From contig JAIUOC010000004.1 in NCBI GenBank assembly GCA_020161265.1, positions 372,001-436,000 on the forward strand: DNA of 64,000 nt, written 5' to 3'. Position 1 is the first letter of the stretch. Every line of letters starts with the position of its first letter. A program made the position numbers and the translations under genes. The DNA is from Chloroflexota bacterium (GTDB taxonomy: Bacteria > Chloroflexota > Chloroflexia > Chloroflexales > Herpetosiphonaceae). Below are positions 6,990-50,676 of the stretch, piece by piece. Below the pieces are notes generated by a model, which made no database searches, was not told where the DNA came from, and saw only the letters and a program-made list of their open reading frames with translations.

Positions 6990-7255
6990 GAGCCGAAACC
7001 ACAAAGGACACGAAGTTGAGCTTTTGGCCACAGATTGACACAGATGGATGTGATTATTCTGCTATGCCCTAGCTATTTCCTGTTTCACCCCCGCATTTCC
7101 TGACCCCTGATCCCCGATCTCTGGCCCCTCCATCACTCTGCGCATCTGCGTTATAAAGTTGGCCCCTGAATCCTTGCCTCGACCCCCAACACCCAATCCC
7201 CAACTCCTATGTTCTATGTTCTATGCTCTATGTTCTATGTTCTATGTTCTCAATT
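6990..7255. repeat. Composite intergenic repeat element
   Basis: CCGAAACCACAAAGGACACG-type sequence on the left is followed by C-rich CTGACCCCTGATCCCCGATC-type units. The element ends in at least six TTCTATG heptamers directly before the promoter region of the next gene. It is the same family as the element at 3872-4120, here with the C-rich half better developed. Confidence 0.7.
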
Positions 7256-16152: not shown

Positions 16153-16188
16153 CAACGCCCCCGATCGATGGCAAGATTGGGGGCGTTG
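16153..16188. terminator. Terminator after TerC
   Basis: CAACGCCCCC pairs with GGGGGCGTTG across a loop of 16 bases, 13 bases after the TerC stop, and is followed by a weak T-rich stretch (TTGATTTTAG). It is convergent with the next minus-strand gene and may serve both. Confidence 0.75.
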
Positions 16189-16291
16189 TTGATTTTAGCT
16201 GGTGGCCCAGCGCAACACTGTTTCCAATGGGCCATTGGCATTGTTGATTTTAGCTGGTGGCCCAGCGCAACACTGTTTCCAATGGGCCATT
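16186..16291. repeat. 51-bp exact tandem duplication of a gene tail
   Basis: The 51 bases at 16186-16236 recur exactly at 16241-16291, with GGCA between them (period 55). The right-hand copy contains the last 13 or so codons and stop of the DUF418-like gene (LETVLRWATS). The left-hand copy is an untranslated relic of the same tail and abuts the TerC terminator stem. Confidence 0.95.
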
Positions 16292-19712: not shown

Positions 19713-19908
19713 GGGTTAGGGACCAAGCATTTAACGCAGAGGGTGTGAGGGATCAGGATTCAGGGGCTAGGGGTCAGCGAATTGAAACACGCTGCATGAA
19801 CCAGATCCCTGACCGCTGATCCCTTGTCCCTCGTCCTTCGTGCATCAAACATAAGCTTCGCGCTCTTCGTGGTTTCGCCCCTATGCTCTATGTTCTATGT
19901 TCTATGTT
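19690..19908. repeat. Intergenic repeat element, left flank of the NACHT gene
   Basis: Starting inside the end of the fucosidase gene, G-rich GGGATCAGGGATTAAGGGC units lead into a segment at 19728-19847. That segment matches 22860-22979 in direct orientation (about nine mismatches in about 119 bases by eye). It contains GCGAATTGAAACACGCTGC. C-rich units, CTTCGTGGTTTCG and CTATGTTCTATGTTC heptamers end it, directly at the stop of the NACHT gene. Confidence 0.85.
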
Positions 19909-19919
19909 CTCACGCACCC

Positions 19920-23817: not shown

Positions 23818-24456
23818 TTAATCAAGTGGCGTAGTCAATAATTCGACTGCGCCACTCACCAAACTATAATATGCCCCTACAATCCTCAACAGGCCCGCTT
23901 GCTCACGCTGAGCCAACAATGGTATCTGCTGCAACTCAGCCACAGTATGCACCACATTCGCCCGAACTGCTGCATCCAAGCGGTCGGGAGCATGAATATC
24001 AATTTCAGCAACCGCTGGACGCAGATGATCAACTAAAACAGCAATGCGATCGGGCGCAGTTTGATGCTGATCAAGCATGTTAATCGTCGCTTTGACAGCG
24101 CCGCAATGCTCATGACCAAGCACCACTAGCAACGGAATTTCGAGCACATCAGCGCCAAATTCGATGCTGCCAACGGTTACTTCATCGATCGCATGGCCTG
24201 CCGTGCGAATCACTAACAAATCGCCAAAACCACAATCAAACAATAATTCGGGAATCACCCGTGAATCGACGCAGCCGAGGATCATGGCAAATGGGTGTTG
24301 GCCTTGGGTTAGTTGTTGGCGGTATAAACTATCGTGGTGAGGCTCGAGTGGGAGGTTGGCGACGAAACGAGCATTCCCGGCCAGTAAATAAGCCAGCGCC
24401 GCCGCCGCATCAACGGTCAATGTTTGCAGATCTGGCAAAACAACAGGTGGAGCCAT
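23818..24456 (-). CDS. Beta-carbonic anhydrase, cytoplasmic
   Basis: This zinc enzyme interconverts CO2 and bicarbonate. The 212-aa protein has the beta-class ligands: Cys and Asp-Arg in GCVDSRV, then HEHCG with the zinc His and Cys. Other family parts are GNARFVANL, DLLVIRTAG and GSIEFGADVL. There is no signal peptide. The ATG at 24456 has AGGAAAGG upstream; an upstream in-frame codon at 24480 is rejected. It lies just downstream of a second, exported paralogue on the same strand. Confidence 0.92.
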   Translation of the reverse strand: MAPPVVLPDLQTLTVDAAAALAYLLAGNARFVANLPLEPHHDSLYRQQLTQGQHPFAMILGCVDSRVIPELLFDCGFGDLLVIRTAGHAIDEVTVGSIEFGADVLEIPLLVVLGHEHCGAVKATINMLDQHQTAPDRIAVLVDHLRPAVAEIDIHAPDRLDAAVRANVVHTVAELQQIPLLAQREQAGLLRIVGAYYSLVSGAVELLTTPLD

Positions 24457-24565
24457 CGGAAAACCTTTCCTTGTATGCAAAGCATCATTGCTACCAGCAT
24501 ATCAAGCCTTGGCTCCAACACTGTTATGGTTCCGCTACCCAAGATACGTATCTAATGACCCAAGC

Positions 24566-25282
24566 CTAGAAAAATTCGACAGTGCCACTATCTAAATGGT
24601 AGTAGCCGCCGATAATTTGGACCTTGCCTTCAGACTCAAGTTGGGCCAACAATGGCGCTGCTTTCAAGGCAGCCACGGTTAATTTGGTATTTTCACGCAC
24701 CACTGCATCAACTAAATCGCTTGGCTCTTGACCAGAAGCTTTGACGGCTTCAACCGCAGGCCGAATATGTTCAACGATTGAGGCAATTTGATCGGGCGCA
24801 GGAGTATTGCTTTCAACCGATTCGATCGTAGCGGTTACGGCACCACATTTTTGATGACCCAAAACCATCACCAAGGGAATGCCCAACTCAGCAGTCCCAA
24901 ATTCGATGCTACCAATTGCCACGTCATCAATCACTTGGCCAGCTGTGCGCACCACAAACAAATCGCCAATCCCGCGATCAAATACCACTTCTGGCCCAAC
25001 CCGCGAATCGACACAGCCAACAATTGTGGCAAAAGGTTTTTGGCCTTTGGCCGTCGTTGTACGCCGATTGGGATCTTGGTTGGGGTCAACCGTAAGATTG
25101 GCCACAAAACGGGCATTGCCATCTTTGAGCAGTTGTAAAGCACTATCGGCGTTAAATTCAGTTGGCTCAGCGGTTGCCGCAGGCTTGATGGTTTCTTCAG
25201 CACCGCAGCCAGCCAATAAACCTAACGTCGCAACTCCCGACACACCTAAAAATTGTCGTCGCGATAGTTTGCGCACATCCAT
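24566..25282 (-). CDS. Beta-carbonic anhydrase, Tat-exported lipoprotein
   Basis: This paralogue of the next gene has 238 aa and a twin-arginine signal (LSRRQFLG) followed by a lipobox GLLAGCG. It is thus exported folded, with its zinc, and tethered outside. The catalytic core has GCVDSRV and GHQKCG, with GNARFVANL and IGDLFVVRTAG. Together the pair would place carbonic anhydrase activity on both sides of the membrane. AAGGAG precedes the ATG. A 109-base gap separates it from the cytoplasmic copy. Confidence 0.92.
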   Translation of the reverse strand: MDVRKLSRRQFLGVSGVATLGLLAGCGAEETIKPAATAEPTEFNADSALQLLKDGNARFVANLTVDPNQDPNRRTTTAKGQKPFATIVGCVDSRVGPEVVFDRGIGDLFVVRTAGQVIDDVAIGSIEFGTAELGIPLVMVLGHQKCGAVTATIESVESNTPAPDQIASIVEHIRPAVEAVKASGQEPSDLVDAVVRENTKLTVAALKAAPLLAQLESEGKVQIIGGYYHLDSGTVEFF

Positions 25283-38961: not shown

Positions 38962-41900
38962 ATGTCGATTCAGCCCCCATCGTCAGAATTTGCCTCATTG
39001 TTGCGTCAAGTTCAACAGGCCGAGGTAATGCCCACCCAAACGCAGCTCGATGATGTGTATCGTCAGCTTGATCAACGGATTCAGCAATTGCAGCGCTATG
39101 TGCCCGACCCAATTGTGCAGCGCTTAAAACACGGCGAGTTGCCCATTCCCTATGGCGAACGTTGGTTGGGTTCGTTGCTGTTTGCCGATCTTTCGGGCTT
39201 TACTGCGCTTTCCGAAAGCCTAACCCGCTTGGGCAAAGAGGGAGCTGAGCAAGTAACCAGCATTATCAACCGCTTATTTAATCAGTTGGTAGCTGATATC
39301 GAGGCTCACGGCGGTGCATTAATCAAATTTGGCGGCGATGCAGTCACCGCCTTTTTTGATCAAACCAAACTTGGCGAGCAGCATGCCTTGTATGCCGCCC
39401 ACGCCGCTCAAGCCATGCAAGCATCAATGGCAACTTTAGGCAAAATCCAGATTCGGGCTGGCCAATTTAATCTCACGCTGCGGATTGGCGTGCATAGCGG
39501 CGAGGCGTTTGCTGCGTTGCTGGGCGATCAGCAGCATGCCGAGTTGATGCTGACTGGGATTGCCGTCAACTTGGTGGCGCGTGCTCAAGAGTTGGCGCGA
39601 CCTGGCGAGGTGGTTTGTTCCAAAGAAACCATGCGTTTGCTAGGCTTGCCGACCGATCCCATGAATCCATTTACGGCCTTAACCACTGCGCTTGAACATC
39701 CGCCTTATCAAGCAACCAGTCAAGCACCAAGTATCCCGCAAACCATCACTTTAGCTGATGTTCAAGCCCTTGCCAGCATCTATGCAGGCATTCAGCGTTT
39801 GCTGCCCCAACGCATGAGCGAAGAACAACTGCTCAGCAATGCCGCCAGCAGAACCGGTGAAATTCGGCTGGTCACAATTGTTTTTGCCCATATTGCTCCC
39901 TTCAGCACGATTGTCGAATTGTGCAATGATGCCAGCGCAACCCAATTGCTCAACCACTACTACCAACGCATGCAGCAAATCGTCAATCACTATGGCGGGG
40001 TGGTCAATAAGCTCGATATGGCTGCCGATGGCGATAAATTGCTGGCGATCTTTGGCGCACCGATTGCCAACGAAAACGATACTGAGTTGGCAGTGCGCAC
40101 TGGCCTTGATATGCAATCGGCCATGAACGAAATTAATGCCTTGATTCAACAGCACGACCCACGCTTACCCTTGCTTGACCAACAAATTGGGATCAATCAA
40201 GGCCATGTGTTTGCGGGAATTGTTGGCAGCGAAACCCGCCGCGAATATACCGTGATGGGCGATCCAGTCAATACTGCTGTGCGCTTGATGAGCGTTTGTC
40301 GCTATGGCGAAGTGTTGGCCAGCCCCACGATCAAACGGCTTACCAGCCATGCCTTTGCCTACGAAACCCTGCCAGCCTTGCCACTCAAAGGCAAAAGCCA
40401 ACCAATCGAGCCAGCTCGGGTCGATCGAGCTTACAATGTGCGACGCGAAACTATGCGAGCCGATTTGGTTGGGCGGGTGCAAGAACTGGAACAATTAGCC
40501 ACAATCAGCATTCAAGCGCTGCAAGGCCAAGGCCAAATTATCAATATCTTCGGTGAGGCAGGCATTGGCAAATCACGTTTGCTCGAAGAATTGCTCAGCC
40601 GTTTGTCGTTGGCTTCGTTCGACCCAAGCTTGAACGTGCCCGAATTTATGCCGATCACGATTGAATGCCAGTTGTATGAGCAAACGACTCCATTTGCTTC
40701 GGCCAGCGAAGTTTTGCGCCAGGTATTGCGCTTGAGCAGCAGCCTGAATGGCGAACGCTTGGTGCAAGTCATCAGCCAACGAGTCAATCGGCTTGTGCCC
40801 GAGTTAGAGCGCTTTTTGCCCTTGCTCAGCGATATTTTGCATGTGAGCTTGGCCGAAAACGAACTAACCCAAGCCCTCGCCCCCGAACAACGCCATGATC
40901 AAACGATTGAATTAGTGGTGGCCTTGATGCTCGCCAGCGCCAACACCACGCCACTGGTGATTTTATGGGATGATGCTCATTGGATCGATGCCTCATCGCG
41001 CCAATTGCTTGAACGTTTGGCCAAGCATGCACATCAGGCCGCGATAGCCTTGCTGATTGGTTCGCGCACCAAGGGCTTAAGTGCCATGACCTGGCCTGAG
41101 CAAACTGTGCATCTTGAGTTAAGCGAATTGAGCATGCCCGAAAGCGAAGCCCTCGCCAGCGCAATTATTGGCCATGCACCATTGCCAACGGCCTTGCTCG
41201 AACGCTGGCGACGCAGCGATGAACGCTTTTTCAATCCACAAGGCAATCCATTTTTCATTGAAGAGATGATGCGCAGCTTGATTCAACAAGGTGTGATTGT
41301 TGAAACTGCGGCGGGCTGGGATTTACGCGGCGAACTCGATAGCTTGCCAACCACGATTGAGGGTGTCATTACCGCACGCTTGGATCGATTGGATAATCGG
41401 ATTCGCGAAACAGTGCAAGTGGCCTCGGTAGTTGGGCGACGCTTTGAACTGAATATTTTGCGTGGCATTACCAACGACGACGATTTAGTTAATCAAATGG
41501 ATCGCTTGACCAATGCTGATGTGGTGTTGCCCGACCATATTGCCGCCGAACTGGCCTATTTATTCAAACATACATTAACTCGCGATGTGGCCTACGAAGG
41601 CATTCTGTATGCCCGCCGGCGCGAATTACATCGACGGGTGGCTGCGCGGATTCAAGAAGTTTATCGGCAAAACCTAGTTGATGTTCTGCCGATTTTGGCT
41701 CGCCATTATGCGCGGGCTGAGGCTTGGCATGAAGCAGTACGCTATTATCGCGAAGCTGGGATCGCCTCGCAAAAACGTTATTACAACGCCGAGGCATGTG
41801 CCCATTATCGTGATGCCCTTGAGTTATTGCCAAATCTGAGTGCCTTTGATCGCTCGTTGGAGCAAGAACTAACTGAGCGTTTGGGCTATGTCACGATGCA

Positions 41901-43044
41901 AGCTGGCGATTATGCTGAAGCCCTACCAATTCTCGCTCAAGCCCAAAGCCAATTACGCCAAAGCAGCGTGTATAGTAGTAGCCGCGAAGCACGGATTTTG
42001 CGCCATATCACCACAATTTACGAGCGGCGCGGCGAATACGAACCAGCCTTCGAGCATCTGCAACAAGCGCTTGATTTGTTGGGCGAAAGTCAATCGGCGG
42101 AGCGAGTACGAGCCTTGTTGCTTGGCTCGGGGCTGCATCAGCGCCAAGGTCGTTATCATGAAACGATTACCTGGGCCGAGCAAGCCTTAGCAATTGCCGA
42201 ACAATTAAATGCCCAACCAGAACAAGCCCGTGCCTATTTGCTGATTGGCGGAACCCATCGCGTGCTTGGCTCGCGTGAGCAGGCCGTCGGCTATTTAGCC
42301 AAATCGATCGAACTGTATCAGGCAGTCAACGACATTTCGCGTTTGGCCGATGCCTATAACAACGCCGCGATCAACTTTAGCGATCTTGAACAATGGGAGG
42401 AATCAATCGCCCTATATCAGGCTGCTTTGAACATCAAAAAGACCATCAATGATAGTTATGGTCAAGCCCTTGTTAGCCTCAACCTTGGTGAGTTATATCG
42501 CAAGACTCAGCAATTTGACCAAGCTTTAGAGACCTTCAACCAAAGTTTACAGCTTTGGAACAAACTTAACTCCAAGCTTGGAGCCGCCGTCACCCAGATG
42601 AATATGGGCAACACGCTGTTTGCTCAAGGCCAAAGCGCCACCGCTGAATCCATGCTTGATCGCAGCCGCGCTATTTTTGATGAAATCCATGTCGATTCAT
42701 TTTTACCCGAGCTGTATCGGATTTATGCTGAACTTTTTTATAGCCGCCACAACTATGCCAAAGCCTTAGATTATTGTGATTTTGCCTTGGAACAGGCTCG
42801 CCAACATTCAGCCAAAGCCGATGAAGGCCTAGCCCAACTGACTCAAAGTAAGATTCTGCTGGCCTTAGACCATTATGATCCAGCTCTACATGCTGCGGAA
42901 CAAGCACTCCAGTTGTTGCAAGAATGCGATAACCAAGCTGATGTTGAACGCTGTTTGGAGCAACTGATCGCTCTGACCCAGACCAATGATCCGCAGCGCA
43001 TGGCTGATTATCAGAATCAACTAGACCAGTTAACCAAGGCATAG
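38962..43044 (+). CDS. Tandem class III nucleotidyl cyclase-ATPase-TPR protein (soluble adenylyl cyclase-like)
   Basis: This 1360-aa cytoplasmic protein has cyclase domain 1 (about 66-250) with the metal Asp76 in LLFADLSGFT, Asp126 in KFGGDAV and the Asn/Arg pair in GIAVNLVAR. Cyclase domain 2 (about 300-480) has the first metal Asp replaced by His310 (VFAHIAPF), while GDPVNTAVR is kept. A STAND-like ATPase follows (Walker A GEAGIGKS at 531-538; Walker B LVILWDDAHW), then about eight TPR repeats. The order C1-C2-ATPase-TPR matches mammalian soluble adenylyl cyclase, in which C2 is also degenerate. Activation by bicarbonate or other signals is possible but unproven. Purine specificity (cAMP or cGMP) is not certain. 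A secreted peptidase follows at 26 bases. Confidence 0.92.
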   Translation: MSIQPPSSEFASLLRQVQQAEVMPTQTQLDDVYRQLDQRIQQLQRYVPDPIVQRLKHGELPIPYGERWLGSLLFADLSGFTALSESLTRLGKEGAEQVTSIINRLFNQLVADIEAHGGALIKFGGDAVTAFFDQTKLGEQHALYAAHAAQAMQASMATLGKIQIRAGQFNLTLRIGVHSGEAFAALLGDQQHAELMLTGIAVNLVARAQELARPGEVVCSKETMRLLGLPTDPMNPFTALTTALEHPPYQATSQAPSIPQTITLADVQALASIYAGIQRLLPQRMSEEQLLSNAASRTGEIRLVTIVFAHIAPFSTIVELCNDASATQLLNHYYQRMQQIVNHYGGVVNKLDMAADGDKLLAIFGAPIANENDTELAVRTGLDMQSAMNEINALIQQHDPRLPLLDQQIGINQGHVFAGIVGSETRREYTVMGDPVNTAVRLMSVCRYGEVLASPTIKRLTSHAFAYETLPALPLKGKSQPIEPARVDRAYNVRRETMRADLVGRVQELEQLATISIQALQGQGQIINIFGEAGIGKSRLLEELLSRLSLASFDPSLNVPEFMPITIECQLYEQTTPFASASEVLRQVLRLSSSLNGERLVQVISQRVNRLVPELERFLPLLSDILHVSLAENELTQALAPEQRHDQTIELVVALMLASANTTPLVILWDDAHWIDASSRQLLERLAKHAHQAAIALLIGSRTKGLSAMTWPEQTVHLELSELSMPESEALASAIIGHAPLPTALLERWRRSDERFFNPQGNPFFIEEMMRSLIQQGVIVETAAGWDLRGELDSLPTTIEGVITARLDRLDNRIRETVQVASVVGRRFELNILRGITNDDDLVNQMDRLTNADVVLPDHIAAELAYLFKHTLTRDVAYEGILYARRRELHRRVAARIQEVYRQNLVDVLPILARHYARAEAWHEAVRYYREAGIASQKRYYNAEACAHYRDALELLPNLSAFDRSLEQELTERLGYVTMQAGDYAEALPILAQAQSQLRQSSVYSSSREARILRHITTIYERRGEYEPAFEHLQQALDLLGESQSAERVRALLLGSGLHQRQGRYHETITWAEQALAIAEQLNAQPEQARAYLLIGGTHRVLGSREQAVGYLAKSIELYQAVNDISRLADAYNNAAINFSDLEQWEESIALYQAALNIKKTINDSYGQALVSLNLGELYRKTQQFDQALETFNQSLQLWNKLNSKLGAAVTQMNMGNTLFAQGQSATAESMLDRSRAIFDEIHVDSFLPELYRIYAELFYSRHNYAKALDYCDFALEQARQHSAKADEGLAQLTQSKILLALDHYDPALHAAEQALQLLQECDNQADVERCLEQLIALTQTNDPQRMADYQNQLDQLTKA

Positions 43045-43070: not shown

Positions 43071-46070
43071 ATGCGTCGTTTCAGTAAAGTCCGCTTACTG
43101 GGAATATGGGTTTTGCTGCTAAGTTTGACGGCTTATCAGCGAACTCCCAATAGTTCGGCTCAAGTGCTTCGCAGCCTTGTGCCAGTGCCCGAAATCGAAT
43201 CAAACGATGCCTGGCAAAATGCCCATGATCTGACCAGTAGTTGTTTATGGCCGAGCATTACGATTTGTGATGTAACGGGCGAGCTTGATGATGGCGAGGA
43301 CTTAGATTGGTACAAAATTACGGTGCGACCTGCAACCACCTTGTCAATTAGCCTCACCGATACCTTTGGCGATTATCAAGTTGCTTTATTTTATGATTTG
43401 GGCCAACCTATCACCCAAACTGGCCATGTGTCGCTAGGCAACCTGAACGCGATTGGCAACCTGAACGCGATTGGCAACCTGAACGCGATTGGCAACCTGA
43501 ACGCGATTGGCAACCTGAACGCGATTGGCAACCTGAACGCGATTGGCTCAAATGGCTATTCCGATGCCAGCATCAATAGTTTTTTATGGACACCTGGTTT
43601 TTATTATGTACTGGTCTATCCGCTTGATGAAGATCAATCGGGTGATTACAACTTGGCAATTGAAGCAGCATTTGATCAAAATTTGACTAAACCTTTGCCA
43701 ATTCCCTTTATGATTAACCAAAGTGAGCCACCGGATTGCAAACGCTCGCTCTATATTACCAATAGCGATTATCTAAATATTCATCAGAGTTTTTCCCCTT
43801 ACAATACCAGTGTTTATACTGAATTACTTGGTTTAGCGTCGAAACCAGGCGATACAAGCGGCTTGGTGCTTGATTTAGCTAATATTTCATGGATTCAACC
43901 AAGTAATGCATTTAGCAATCAATCGACGCAGTGGAATGCCAATCGCACCAATCCGTTCTATGCCAATCGGATTGCTGAGGGCGTGCATCATCTAATCACT
44001 CAATATGCGCGACGCTGTGCGAGCTTACGCTATGTCACAATTGTTGGCGGCGATTACGTCGTGCCATTTTATCGTGTGCCCGACGAAACCGTCATTGCCA
44101 ACGAAGGCGATTATTTGGCAAGTTCGGGAATTAACACCAATAGCTTTACCGCCAGCAGCCTGAAATATAAAACAATCTTGACTGATAATATTTATGGGGC
44201 AATCAAGCCGATTCCTTATCGTGGTCGCCAATTGTGGGTGCCTGAACTGAGTGTGGGCCGCTTAGTCGAAGGTGCTGATTCAATTCATTTTTATCTCAAG
44301 AGCATGAATCTGCATACCGATTTCCCAAGTGGCAGTATGATTAATCTAGATCCTCAACCGCAACAAGCAAATTTGGTGACGGGCTATGATTTCTTGCTCG
44401 ATCAAGCCAAGGTTGTCTCGGGAACGTTGACAAATTTAGTCGGTGCGCGTCCGGTTGGTTTGATCAGCGATACGTGGGATGCAGACGATTTACTTTCAAT
44501 CTGGTGGCCCGATGTTAATAACGGGATCGCCAACTCACCCTATCCCGCTCAATCGATCAATGCCCACTTTACCCACTATCAGGCGATTCCAGCCAATTTT
44601 GAAATTTCAAGTGATGTAGTTGAGGCCTCGTCGCTCTATTTGCATCCGCTTAGTATAGTTGCGCCAGAAGATGCCTATCAGCGTAATCGCCTAGGCTATA
44701 GTGTTGGCTGCCACTCCGGTTATAGTGTCTATGATAACGATGCTGGCGGTCTTGGTAATCCAGTTGCGATCGACTTTCCGCAAGCCTACATGAAGCAACA
44801 TGGCACGTGGATTGGCAATACTGGATTTGGCTATGGTGATAGTGATTTAGTCGGCTATTCGGAAAAACTTATGACCCAATTTACGCTCGAAATTGGCCGT
44901 GAGTGGAAAAATCAATCAGGGTTTTATGGGGGTATGCCTGTTGGCTATGCTTTGGTTCGCGCCAAACGCAGTTACTTACGCGAAGGTACACCAGGTACAT
45001 TTAGCGTCTACGACGAAAAAGTGTTGTTGCAATCAACCTTATATGGCCTGCCGATGATTCGAGTTTCAGTCCCGAATCCGGTTGCCTTCCCACCAGGTGA
45101 TCGCCAAGATTTTGCCTGTTTGACCTGTCCGCCACAGGTAGCGCATCGGGCAACCGTCACTGATCGGGCGATTGATCGCGACATTACCTTCAATATTAAC
45201 TACACAACTGCCCAAGATAATGCCCGTGGCAAAATTCTCAGGGCGCAGGCAACCGTAGTCAACGATACTGAAGGCTTATTGACTGGTCAGATGTTTAATA
45301 GCTCGTTGGTTAATGCGGCGGGCTTGCCATCATTGCCCAACTTTAGCATTCCACTTTCCTTGACCGATAGTTTTGGCGAACAACGGATTCAAGGGGTTCA
45401 GTTCCTTGGTGGAACCACAACCACTGCTGCAACCTTTAATCCAGTTATTACGCGTTTGATTACTGACGAGATTTATTTGAGCCACGAACCAACCTTTGAT
45501 TTTACTGATCGTTGGTATCCCGACCAACCATTTAGCTATAGCGTGTTCGAAAGCGATAACCTCGACGATGATGGCCCGCTCAACCAAGATCGACGTTTTT
45601 CGCAGCTTTTGTTGACTCCAACTCAATTTAAAGGCAACACATCGGGCGGTGAGTTACGCCAGTTCAGCACCATTACGCTACGGCTGAAATATTTGAGCGA
45701 TGGCGCTGATGATGATTTGCTAGATGATAATTTTGACCCAATCGTTCGTGATACCCAGCGCACCAGCGATGGCAAAATTCGGGCAATTGTGATCGAGCGC
45801 GATAACGATGGCCCAGGCGATGAGCTTGATGCTGAGATGGTTGTCAAAACCAACACTGGTGCTTGGCAAACTGTCAGCATGAATACCTTCCAAATTGGCA
45901 CAACTGAACGCTGGCAAATTGAAGGTAGCCTTCCAGCCAATACCTTTCTACCCTTGCAACTGTTGATTCAAGCGGAAGATGAGGCTGGTAATGTGGGGGT
46001 TGAAACCTATGGCGGGCGTTTCGATATTGATTATGAAATGTATCTGCCCAACGTAAATGTCAACCGCTAG
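43071..46070 (+). CDS. Secreted C25-like (gingipain-family) cysteine peptidase
   Basis: This 999-aa exported protein has a basic N-terminus and a hydrophobic signal segment (LLGIWVLLLSLTAY). Residues about 50-205 form a pre-peptidase C-terminal-type beta domain with DWYKITV. This domain holds six exact GNLNAI repeats at 123-158. The peptidase region (about 225-690) has candidate catalytic His499/His502 (AHFTHYQ) and Cys547 in VGCHSGYSV, the C25 pattern, with TIVGGDYVVPFYRVPDE before it. A C-terminal beta-sandwich with acidic, calcium-like stretches (SDNLDDDGPLNQD, DGADDDLLDDNFDP) ends near VNVNR. GGAGGG precedes the ATG. It may degrade prey or surface proteins in a predatory glider; that is inference. 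Confidence 0.88.
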   Translation: MRRFSKVRLLGIWVLLLSLTAYQRTPNSSAQVLRSLVPVPEIESNDAWQNAHDLTSSCLWPSITICDVTGELDDGEDLDWYKITVRPATTLSISLTDTFGDYQVALFYDLGQPITQTGHVSLGNLNAIGNLNAIGNLNAIGNLNAIGNLNAIGNLNAIGSNGYSDASINSFLWTPGFYYVLVYPLDEDQSGDYNLAIEAAFDQNLTKPLPIPFMINQSEPPDCKRSLYITNSDYLNIHQSFSPYNTSVYTELLGLASKPGDTSGLVLDLANISWIQPSNAFSNQSTQWNANRTNPFYANRIAEGVHHLITQYARRCASLRYVTIVGGDYVVPFYRVPDETVIANEGDYLASSGINTNSFTASSLKYKTILTDNIYGAIKPIPYRGRQLWVPELSVGRLVEGADSIHFYLKSMNLHTDFPSGSMINLDPQPQQANLVTGYDFLLDQAKVVSGTLTNLVGARPVGLISDTWDADDLLSIWWPDVNNGIANSPYPAQSINAHFTHYQAIPANFEISSDVVEASSLYLHPLSIVAPEDAYQRNRLGYSVGCHSGYSVYDNDAGGLGNPVAIDFPQAYMKQHGTWIGNTGFGYGDSDLVGYSEKLMTQFTLEIGREWKNQSGFYGGMPVGYALVRAKRSYLREGTPGTFSVYDEKVLLQSTLYGLPMIRVSVPNPVAFPPGDRQDFACLTCPPQVAHRATVTDRAIDRDITFNINYTTAQDNARGKILRAQATVVNDTEGLLTGQMFNSSLVNAAGLPSLPNFSIPLSLTDSFGEQRIQGVQFLGGTTTTAATFNPVITRLITDEIYLSHEPTFDFTDRWYPDQPFSYSVFESDNLDDDGPLNQDRRFSQLLLTPTQFKGNTSGGELRQFSTITLRLKYLSDGADDDLLDDNFDPIVRDTQRTSDGKIRAIVIERDNDGPGDELDAEMVVKTNTGAWQTVSMNTFQIGTTERWQIEGSLPANTFLPLQLLIQAEDEAGNVGVETYGGRFDIDYEMYLPNVNVNR
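43437..43544 (+). repeat. Six exact 18-bp tandem repeats inside the C25-like peptidase gene
   Basis: The unit GGCAACCTGAACGCGATT occurs six times without a single base change, encoding GNLNAI six times. Perfect identity including third positions shows very recent expansion or ongoing homogenisation. The period is a multiple of three, so copy changes alter length but keep frame. Confidence 0.98.
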
Positions 46071-48886: not shown

Positions 48887-49888
48887 ATGACAACCATGAC
48901 AGTGCGTTTTTGGGGTGTGCGTGGCAGCCACCCAGTATCCGGCCCAGAATATTTGAAGTACGGCGGCAACACGTTATGCGTCGAGGTCGAGGCCAATGGC
49001 CATACGATCATCCTCGATGCAGGAACTGGCATTATTAACCTTGGCAAAAGCCTCAACGCCCGCGCCAAAGCCAGTGGTAAGCCCATCGATGTGACAATTT
49101 TGTTCAGCCATATGCACCATGATCATACCCAGGGTTTTCCATTTTTCACCCCTGCCTATCGTGGTGACACCAATATGCACATCTTTGGGCCTGGTATTTT
49201 TGAACGTGATTTAGAAGAAACCTTAGCAAAAACGATGTTGCCGCCGGTTTTTCCAGTGTCGATGGCCGAATTGCCTGCCCAAAAAATCGTTTCGAGCATC
49301 CGCGAAACTGATGTATTATTGCTTTCAGAGGCGGTGGGCGGCGCGATGCTGCGCAATCGTTTTCACGATAATCTGAGCGATATCGATGAAAATATGATTG
49401 TGATCAAAGCCTTGCGCTCATATGCACACCCCGATGGCGTGTTAGTTTACCGAATTGAATGGCAAGGAATGAGCGTTGTCTACGCCACTGACACAGAAGG
49501 CTATATTAATGGTGATCAACGGCTAGCTCAATTTGCTCAAGGTGCTGATGTGCTGATCCACGATGCTCAATATACCGAGGAGCATTATCTGGGCAAAGCA
49601 CCAGGCTTTGGTTCAACCCAAGGCTGGGGCCACTCAACCGCCACGATGGCGTGTGATGTGGCCAAATCGGCCAAAGTCGGCACATTAGTCTTGTTCCATC
49701 ATGAGCCAACCTATGGCGACGATGTGATCGAGACAATTGAAAACCATGCCAAATCGATGTTTGCTGGGGCAGTCGCTGCCCGCGAAGGCTTAGAATTGGT
49801 GCTGAACCAACCGCAACCCGAAGTAGCCAGCGTTGCGGATGCCAGCACTGCTGTAACCGAGCCATTGAGCAGCGACGTTGCAAGTTGA
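48887..49888 (+). CDS. MBL-fold metallohydrolase (RNase Z-like / phosphodiesterase-like)
   Basis: This 333-aa metallo-beta-lactamase-fold protein starts RFWGVRGSHPVSGPEYLKYGGNT, a signature of a phosphodiesterase-like subgroup. It has LDAGTGI, the metal motif SHMHHDHTQGFPFF, VYATDTEGY, and VLIHDAQYTEEHY and FHHEPTYGDD with the later ligands. The substrate may be a cyclic nucleotide or another phosphodiester, but this is unproven. AAGGAG precedes the ATG. It is followed by a Crp/Fnr gene 92 bases on, an arrangement that fits signal turnover. Confidence 0.85.
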   Translation: MTTMTVRFWGVRGSHPVSGPEYLKYGGNTLCVEVEANGHTIILDAGTGIINLGKSLNARAKASGKPIDVTILFSHMHHDHTQGFPFFTPAYRGDTNMHIFGPGIFERDLEETLAKTMLPPVFPVSMAELPAQKIVSSIRETDVLLLSEAVGGAMLRNRFHDNLSDIDENMIVIKALRSYAHPDGVLVYRIEWQGMSVVYATDTEGYINGDQRLAQFAQGADVLIHDAQYTEEHYLGKAPGFGSTQGWGHSTATMACDVAKSAKVGTLVLFHHEPTYGDDVIETIENHAKSMFAGAVAAREGLELVLNQPQPEVASVADASTAVTEPLSSDVAS

Positions 49889-49980
49889 TCAACGGTAGCA
49901 GGTGGAGGAACACGCCCATGAATCCAACCATAACAACGATTACTCCGAGTTTTGGCTGGCGCATGCTAGGAGATAGCCCA

Positions 49981-50676
49981 ATGTTGAGCGATACAGAACT
50001 GGCGTTACTCCGCGATGTTGAGCTATTTGACGGCCTCGCTCCTGAGCAGGCCGCTCAAATTAGTCGGCGCTTGGTGCGGCGTACCTTCCCTGCTGGAACC
50101 AATTTGATGTCGGTGGAGCAACCAGGCGAGGTTGTATATATCATTCTGAATGGCACGGTCAAAATTCATGTTGAGCAAGCTGATGGCACCGATGTGATTA
50201 TTGCCATGCTTGGGGCTGGCGATACCGTCGGCGAAATGAGCTTAATCGATAGCGCTGGCCGCTCGGCAACCGTGGTTACTCAAGAAGAATCAACCTTGCT
50301 CTGGATGAATCGCACAGCTTTTTTGGAAGCCTTGCAAAACGCTCCGGTGATTACCTTAAACCTTGTGCGTATGCTTTCAAGTCGTTTGCGGCTGGCCAAT
50401 GAGCAAATTCAGGCTTTAGCGACGCTCGATGTGCATGGGCGGGTGGCTCGCCAGCTCTTGGCGTTTGCCCAAAAATACGGCCACGCCGATGAAACGGGCA
50501 CGGTGCAAATTCCAATTCGGCTGACCCAAAGCGATTTGGCAGGCTTGGTCGGAGCATCACGCGAACGAGTCAACCAAGTGATTGGCTATTTCAAACAACG
50601 CCGCTATCTGAGCGTCGATCAACATTATCACATCAGTTTGCACAACCTTGAAGCCTTGGCCAAACGGATTAAGTGA
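49981..50676 (+). CDS. Crp/Fnr family transcriptional regulator
   Basis: This 231-aa regulator has an N-terminal cyclic-nucleotide-binding fold with GDTVGEMSLIDSAGRSATVV, which keeps the Gly-Glu and Arg-Ser residues that hold the phosphate of cAMP/cGMP in Crp. A dimer helix follows, then an HTH with LTQSDLAGLVGASRERVNQVIGYFKQRRYL. No Fnr cysteine cluster is present. The start at 49981 has AGGAGA at good spacing; ATG 49918 with GGAGG is an alternative adding 21 residues. A ligand supplied by the large cyclase encoded at 39-43 kb is conceivable but not shown. Confidence 0.9.
   Translation: MLSDTELALLRDVELFDGLAPEQAAQISRRLVRRTFPAGTNLMSVEQPGEVVYIILNGTVKIHVEQADGTDVIIAMLGAGDTVGEMSLIDSAGRSATVVTQEESTLLWMNRTAFLEALQNAPVITLNLVRMLSSRLRLANEQIQALATLDVHGRVARQLLAFAQKYGHADETGTVQIPIRLTQSDLAGLVGASRERVNQVIGYFKQRRYLSVDQHYHISLHNLEALAKRIK

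Follow-up and report, generated by a model that had tools for sequence, protein, structure and literature searches.

Does a bacterial gene whose product is built like mammalian soluble adenylyl cyclase (sAC) encode a working cyclase, and does that product share the bicarbonate sensing and the ancestry of the mammalian enzyme? The question is raised by an intact open reading frame at 38962-43044 (+) of the window, the 64,000-nucleotide stretch of DNA analysed here, which belongs to a 6.04-Mb Herpetosiphon genome (G000). The frame starts with ATG and encodes a dual class III cyclase-STAND-TPR protein of 1360 aa, an assignment based on Pfam, orthologues and dN/dS. Pfam recognizes two Guanylate_cyc stretches (131 bits), AAA_16 at residues 502-692 and TPR arrays at about 1000-1350; the NCBIfam search returned sub-threshold matches only, such as TOMM_kin_cyc at 257 bits against a cut-off of 706. 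Cyclase domain C1, which supplies the metal ligands, spans about residues 40-226 (39079..39639, +; Pfam, PDB/profile match and model), and C2, which has lost its metal site and carries the substrate and catalytic residues, spans about residues 295-482 (39844..40407, +; Pfam, profile and model). They are followed by a STAND (AAA_16-type) NTPase with its subsequent helical domains (about residues 498-930; 40453..41751, +) and by a TPR superhelix (about residues 931-1350; 41752..43011, +), both placed by Pfam, model and Foldseek.

The best PDB sequence match is human sAC, which covers both cyclase domains in order, and a profile of 44 relatives is colinear with human sAC across C1 and C2 (E 4e-64). 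Full-length orthologues of 84-99% identity occur in all five other Herpetosiphon genomes searched, the one in H. aurantiacus DSM 785 being 99% identical to the G000 protein. The colinear profile match and the orthologues in 5/5 genomes are far more than chance would give, and on these sequence comparisons we take the product to be a real, conserved and intact Herpetosiphon protein with the build of mammalian sAC. The Pfam domains and the in-order sAC match thus confirm the layout given in a first-pass annotation of this DNA, namely cyclase 1, degenerate cyclase 2, STAND-like ATPase and TPR.

Alignment with human sAC, whose residue functions were used for the assignment (PMC12867704, PMC12250328), yields one complete composite site. 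From C1 come the metal ligands Asp76 (39187..39189, +; human D47) and Asp126 (39337..39339, +; human D99), together with Arg174, which aligns with human K144. From C2 come Lys350 (40009..40011, +; human K334) and Thr430 (40249..40251, +; human T405) for adenine recognition, and the catalytic pair Asn437 to Arg441 (40270..40284, +; human N412 and R416). Conservation was counted across 79 Chloroflexota loci, 78 of which reach as far as Thr430, Asn437 and Arg441. Asp76 and Asp126 are Asp in 79/79 and position 350 is Lys or Arg in 79/79, while Thr430, Asn437 and Arg441 are each kept in 78/78; Arg174 is under weaker constraint (Arg or Lys in 65/79). The mean top-residue fraction of the six main residues is 0.97, versus 0.60 for all C1/C2 columns, and none of 100000 random six-column sets reached this level of conservation. 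A single working composite site, rather than two, is the clear prediction from these alignments. In class III cyclases, the Lys/Thr pair goes with ATP as the substrate; since Lys350 and Thr430 form such a pair, the substrate is predicted to be ATP. The first-pass annotation had placed both metal aspartates in cyclase 1 and proposed an sAC-like division of labour between the domains, and both proposals hold; it had also named absence of the substrate-binding residues as a finding that would tell against it, and these residues are present in the alignment with human sAC.

The second, mirror-image site looks different, with a mean top-residue fraction of 0.63 over the same 79 loci. Its first metal Asp is replaced by His310 (39889..39891, +), as had been noted earlier and as the alignment of relatives bears out. 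The Herpetosiphonaceae orthologues share this His; human sAC has Asn there, as do most of the other relatives. In nearly all relatives the Asp is replaced by His, Asn or other residues. The second Asp of C2, D358, is preceded by a 4-residue insertion that is absent from the single-domain cyclases of G000 and equal in length to the insertion in human sAC C2. As D358 sits after an insertion with no counterpart in single-domain cyclases, it is probably no true metal ligand either. On a more generous reading, both sites are active, or the mirror site serves as an additional pocket for a nucleotide or a regulator, with His310 functionally substituting for the metal Asp. This reading draws on the retention of K122, R207 and mostly N203 in the mirror site of the Herpetosiphonaceae orthologues, and on the conservation of His310 in those orthologues across four genera. 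Nevertheless, the first C2 Asp is gone, the insertion lies ahead of D358, Met196 stands at the adenine-binding Thr position and R207 is missing from most of the wider relatives, so that we consider this reading improbable. The same retained residues, with His310 fixed in the family, underlie a narrower version in which the Herpetosiphonaceae mirror site would have a regulatory function of its own, as a pocket for some other anion, a nucleotide or protons, retuned after the split from the animal-sAC lineage; this, too, we hold to be doubtful.

sAC architecture and bicarbonate sensing are two properties that are often merged, and they are kept apart here. The first-pass annotation had imagined a CO2/bicarbonate-cAMP circuit, in which the protein would sense bicarbonate (CO2/pH) as mammalian sAC does and act together with nearby carbonic anhydrases and a Crp-type regulator. 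In human sAC, R176 toggles D99 between the inhibited and the active state (PMC12250328), and replacing K95 or R176 greatly reduces HCO3- sensitivity (PMC12867704). In the gap-free alignment with human sAC, the position of this switch Arg176 is occupied by Ala206 (39577..39579, +), which is Ala in 65/79 relatives and Arg in 0/79; the adjoining R207 occupies the catalytic-Arg position of homodimeric class III enzymes. K122 does keep the K95 position, but the sea-urchin and salmon sACs, in which one of K95/R176 is changed, respond to pH and are not activated by HCO3- (PMC12867704). Also in favour of a sensor is Thr430, a class IIIb residue whose presence in an sAC-like cyclase is thought to predict regulation by bicarbonate (PMC3383692), as is the bicarbonate regulation reported for bacterial sAC-like cyclases in general (review PMC3085406).

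The genomic neighbourhood was the other support for such a circuit. The genes themselves are indeed in the window: two beta-class carbonic anhydrases at 23818-24480 and 24566-25282 (both -), and a Crp-type regulator at 49885-50676 (+). However, when the positions of all Pro_CA matches were compared in nine genomes of the family (there are three matches per Herpetosiphon genome), linkage of carbonic anhydrase to the cyclase had to be rejected. The pair lies 13.7 kb from the cyclase in G000 and about 1.87 Mb from it in H. aurantiacus DSM 785; pair and cyclase are on different contigs in G003, G004 and G006, so that the pair is unlinked in 4/5 other Herpetosiphon genomes, and in G005 it lies 37 kb away with its relative orientation changed. 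That carbonic anhydrases and cyclase are close together in the window does not reflect a conserved unit.

The Crp gene is about 7-9 kb downstream of the cyclase in 6/6 Herpetosiphon genomes, with other genes intervening, and this constancy speaks for the circuit; against it, no cNMP gene is near the orthologue in G001, a genome of another genus, where the nearest is about 27 kb off. This comparison covers the genus and G001, as the contigs of G007 and G008 end too early. The product of the Crp gene carries a GE...RSA motif, which we take to be the typical cyclic-nucleotide-binding motif. With 12 cNMP-domain matches in G000, we regard this Crp as one candidate cAMP target among several. On balance, Ala206 at the R176 position and the unlinked carbonic anhydrases leave the proposed circuit without support, and there is only a small chance that the protein senses bicarbonate as mammalian sAC does. 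It may respond to bicarbonate by another route, since bacterial sAC-like enzymes are reported to be responsive (PMC3085406). A tighter pairing of cyclase and Crp is seen elsewhere in the Herpetosiphonaceae, where some sAC-type cyclases have a Crp-family gene as their immediate neighbour (G007:C190:2901-7047, G001:C7:13207-18790 and G007:C297:7110-8301).

Structural modelling of the C1-C2 pair, a check named in the first-pass annotation, gave a confident model (pLDDT 91.4, pTM 0.90). Its best 24 structural matches are all human sAC entries (Z 36.8-39.5), the top one aligning 425 residues at 3.6 A with Z 39.5, and the membrane cyclase AC9 comes next in the ranking (Z 35.6); identity to human sAC over the structural alignment is about 23%. 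Among the matches is also 6yii, a class III cyclase-like ATP-binding protein known by structure, which offers a precedent for a catalytically dead protein, in which STAND signalling would be joined to a nucleotide-binding head of cyclase origin. But nothing is missing from the composite site, and the six main residues in it are far more constrained than random columns, so this reading is very unlikely. Selection was assessed as regional dN/dS against three related genomes. The whole gene gives 0.07-0.10, with 0.04-0.05 in C1, C2 and STAND, 0.08-0.13 in the TPR region and 0.16-0.20 in the C1-C2 linker. Purifying selection is strong on C1, C2 and STAND, and the TPR tail is diverging faster than the remainder, particularly against G004. 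That the degenerate C2 is constrained as tightly as C1 is the expectation if C2 supplies half the site.

The tail has its own relatives. Its Walker A motif GEAGIGKS (residues 531-538; 40552..40575, +) has invariant or near-invariant GxGK columns among 31 sequences, and a Walker B-like VILWDD (residues 666-671; 40957..40974, +) has one of its two Asp invariant or nearly so in that region of the same 31. The STAND-TPR model (pLDDT 89.9) has as its top Foldseek match 6mfv, a STAND protein with a TPR sensor (E 5e-15); a structure of MalT, from the maltose system, and Apaf-1 are also among the matches. The tail shows the features that define STAND NTPases, namely Walker A and B, a NOD-type core and superstructure-forming sensor repeats. 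As in 6mfv and MalT, the NTPase core is followed by helical and TPR sensor domains; unlike in those proteins, two fused cyclase domains form the output at the N-terminus. A STAND domain is also predicted in full-length human sAC, although no nucleotide effect specific to this tail was seen with the full-length enzyme in vitro (PMC12802110). In the literature examined, we found no demonstration that a STAND module gates a cyclase.

From the sequence and the models together, the protein is probably an adenylyl cyclase of class III, located in the cytosol, whose C1 and C2 domains pair as an intramolecular heterodimer with one working site and which would be gated by the STAND-TPR tail. C1 and C2 would fold onto each other so that the metal aspartates D76 and D126 of C1 meet Lys350/Thr430 (adenine) and Asn437/Arg441 (catalytic) of C2, and the mirror site, having lost its metal site to H310 and an inserted hairpin, would play a structural or regulatory role. 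An inducer, be it a protein, a peptide or a small ligand, would most likely be bound by the TPR superhelix. Its binding would let the NTPase core, closed in its ADP form, shift to an ATP form that is open, and the open form may either relieve inhibition of the cyclase heads or cluster them. The cAMP produced would then act through at least one of the Crp-type proteins that the genome encodes.

We then come to the relation with mammalian sAC itself (ADCY10; PDB 4clf, 4cll, 4usu). The two share the C1-C2 order, the predicted STAND/P-loop tail after C2, the composite site (human D47/D99 with K334/T405/N412/R416) and a degenerate C2 with an insertion of equal length. Accordingly, two fused class III domains, metal Asp in C1 only, Lys/Thr/Asn/Arg supplied by C2 and a P-loop/STAND tail are all found in the Herpetosiphon protein; the K95 and R176 pair is not, and the protein lies outside the metazoan sAC clade, for which one eukaryotic sequence was used. 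It differs from ADCY10 further in its subclade, in the absence of R176, in Arg174 for K144 and in His for Asn in C2.

A tree built from 74 single domains has a branch (support 93) that sets off every C1 domain, the human one among them, and another (97) that does the same for every C2 domain, again with the human one; the single-domain cyclases lie apart from both. Since C1 and C2 each keep to their own side with the human domains among them, inheritance of the sAC layout from a single fused ancestor is the best reading, rather than convergence. The concatenated tree joins human sAC, within another Herpetosiphonaceae subclade, to a paralogue from the same genome as the focal gene (own_p5, at G000:C2:289831-292665, a 1138-aa open frame) and to G008c, G001c, G008b and G008e (support 96/98). 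As human sAC sits on a long branch and is the sole eukaryotic row, its exact neighbour is less sure than its separation from the focal clade. The paralogue has the same dual cyclase-AAA_16-TPR layout but is nearer to human sAC, with Lys/His at the K95/R176 positions and a C2 loop, DDKG, that resembles human FDKG; its score against human sAC is 143 bits (993 aa), versus 90 bits for the focal protein (1360 aa). That the focal protein is the bacterial orthologue of mammalian sAC, as the shared domain order and C2 insertion and the best PDB match might suggest, is most improbable and was rejected, given these scores, the 96/98 grouping and a p-AU of 0.012 against uniting human sAC and the focal group in one clade. 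By score and tree, the focal protein is an out-paralogue and not the closest relative of human sAC even in its own genome. Of the earlier description as a protein with the layout of mammalian sAC, the layout and true homology stand, while closeness belongs to the paralogue.

Bacterial sAC-like dual cyclases with a P-loop NTPase domain have been described by Roelofs and Van Haastert 2002 and by Kobayashi, Buck and Levin 2004, both as cited in PMC6660944. The focal protein likewise carries such a domain; the layout is already known from bacteria, and the protein belongs to that family. It has the family traits, sAC-type C1 and C2 clades followed by AAA_16/STAND and TPR, and 79 Chloroflexota loci were compared. 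The 2004 work of Kobayashi, Buck and Levin is said to have used a Chloroflexus enzyme; a literature search for a Chloroflexus aurantiacus cyclase returned no paper. The protein itself falls into a Chloroflexota subclade that has Ala where the switch residue would be and, among its Herpetosiphonaceae members, His310 in C2. The present analysis places this subfamily at the level of residues, separates it from the paralogue nearer to sAC and puts the proposed genomic context to the test. Bacterial dual cyclases that end in a STAND tail owe to common descent a layout which they share with an enzyme that is central to sperm function in animals. They also offer practical models of the tail of full-length sAC, which is poorly understood. 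Plasmid matches were also considered as instances of the same layout and were rejected; they are mostly from rhizobia, and, because both query halves fall on one stretch of about 600 bases, they are single cyclase domains.

Some minor observations concern the relatives and the surrounding DNA. In G001, the orthologue (G001:C5:118146-122094; L029, L031) is split into two overlapping ORFs of 737 and 880 aa with the break near the STAND start, which is a frameshift, an assembly error or a real two-protein form. In the subclade of G007b, G001b, G007f and G007g (L030, L040, L058, L059), the adenine-recognising Lys and Thr of C2 are lost, mostly to Gln/Gly, while Asn and Arg are kept; its specificity has perhaps changed. 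The gene that follows the cyclase, at 43071-46070, has no Pfam match and contains a perfect 18-base in-frame tandem repeat (GNLNAI) at 43437-43547, present in 6 copies here and in 8 in related genomes in which the region is readable. Elsewhere in the window, a near-perfect 55-base tandem duplication lies at 16182-16291, and the heptamer CTATGTT forms two arrays, at 7207-7250 and 19881-19910.
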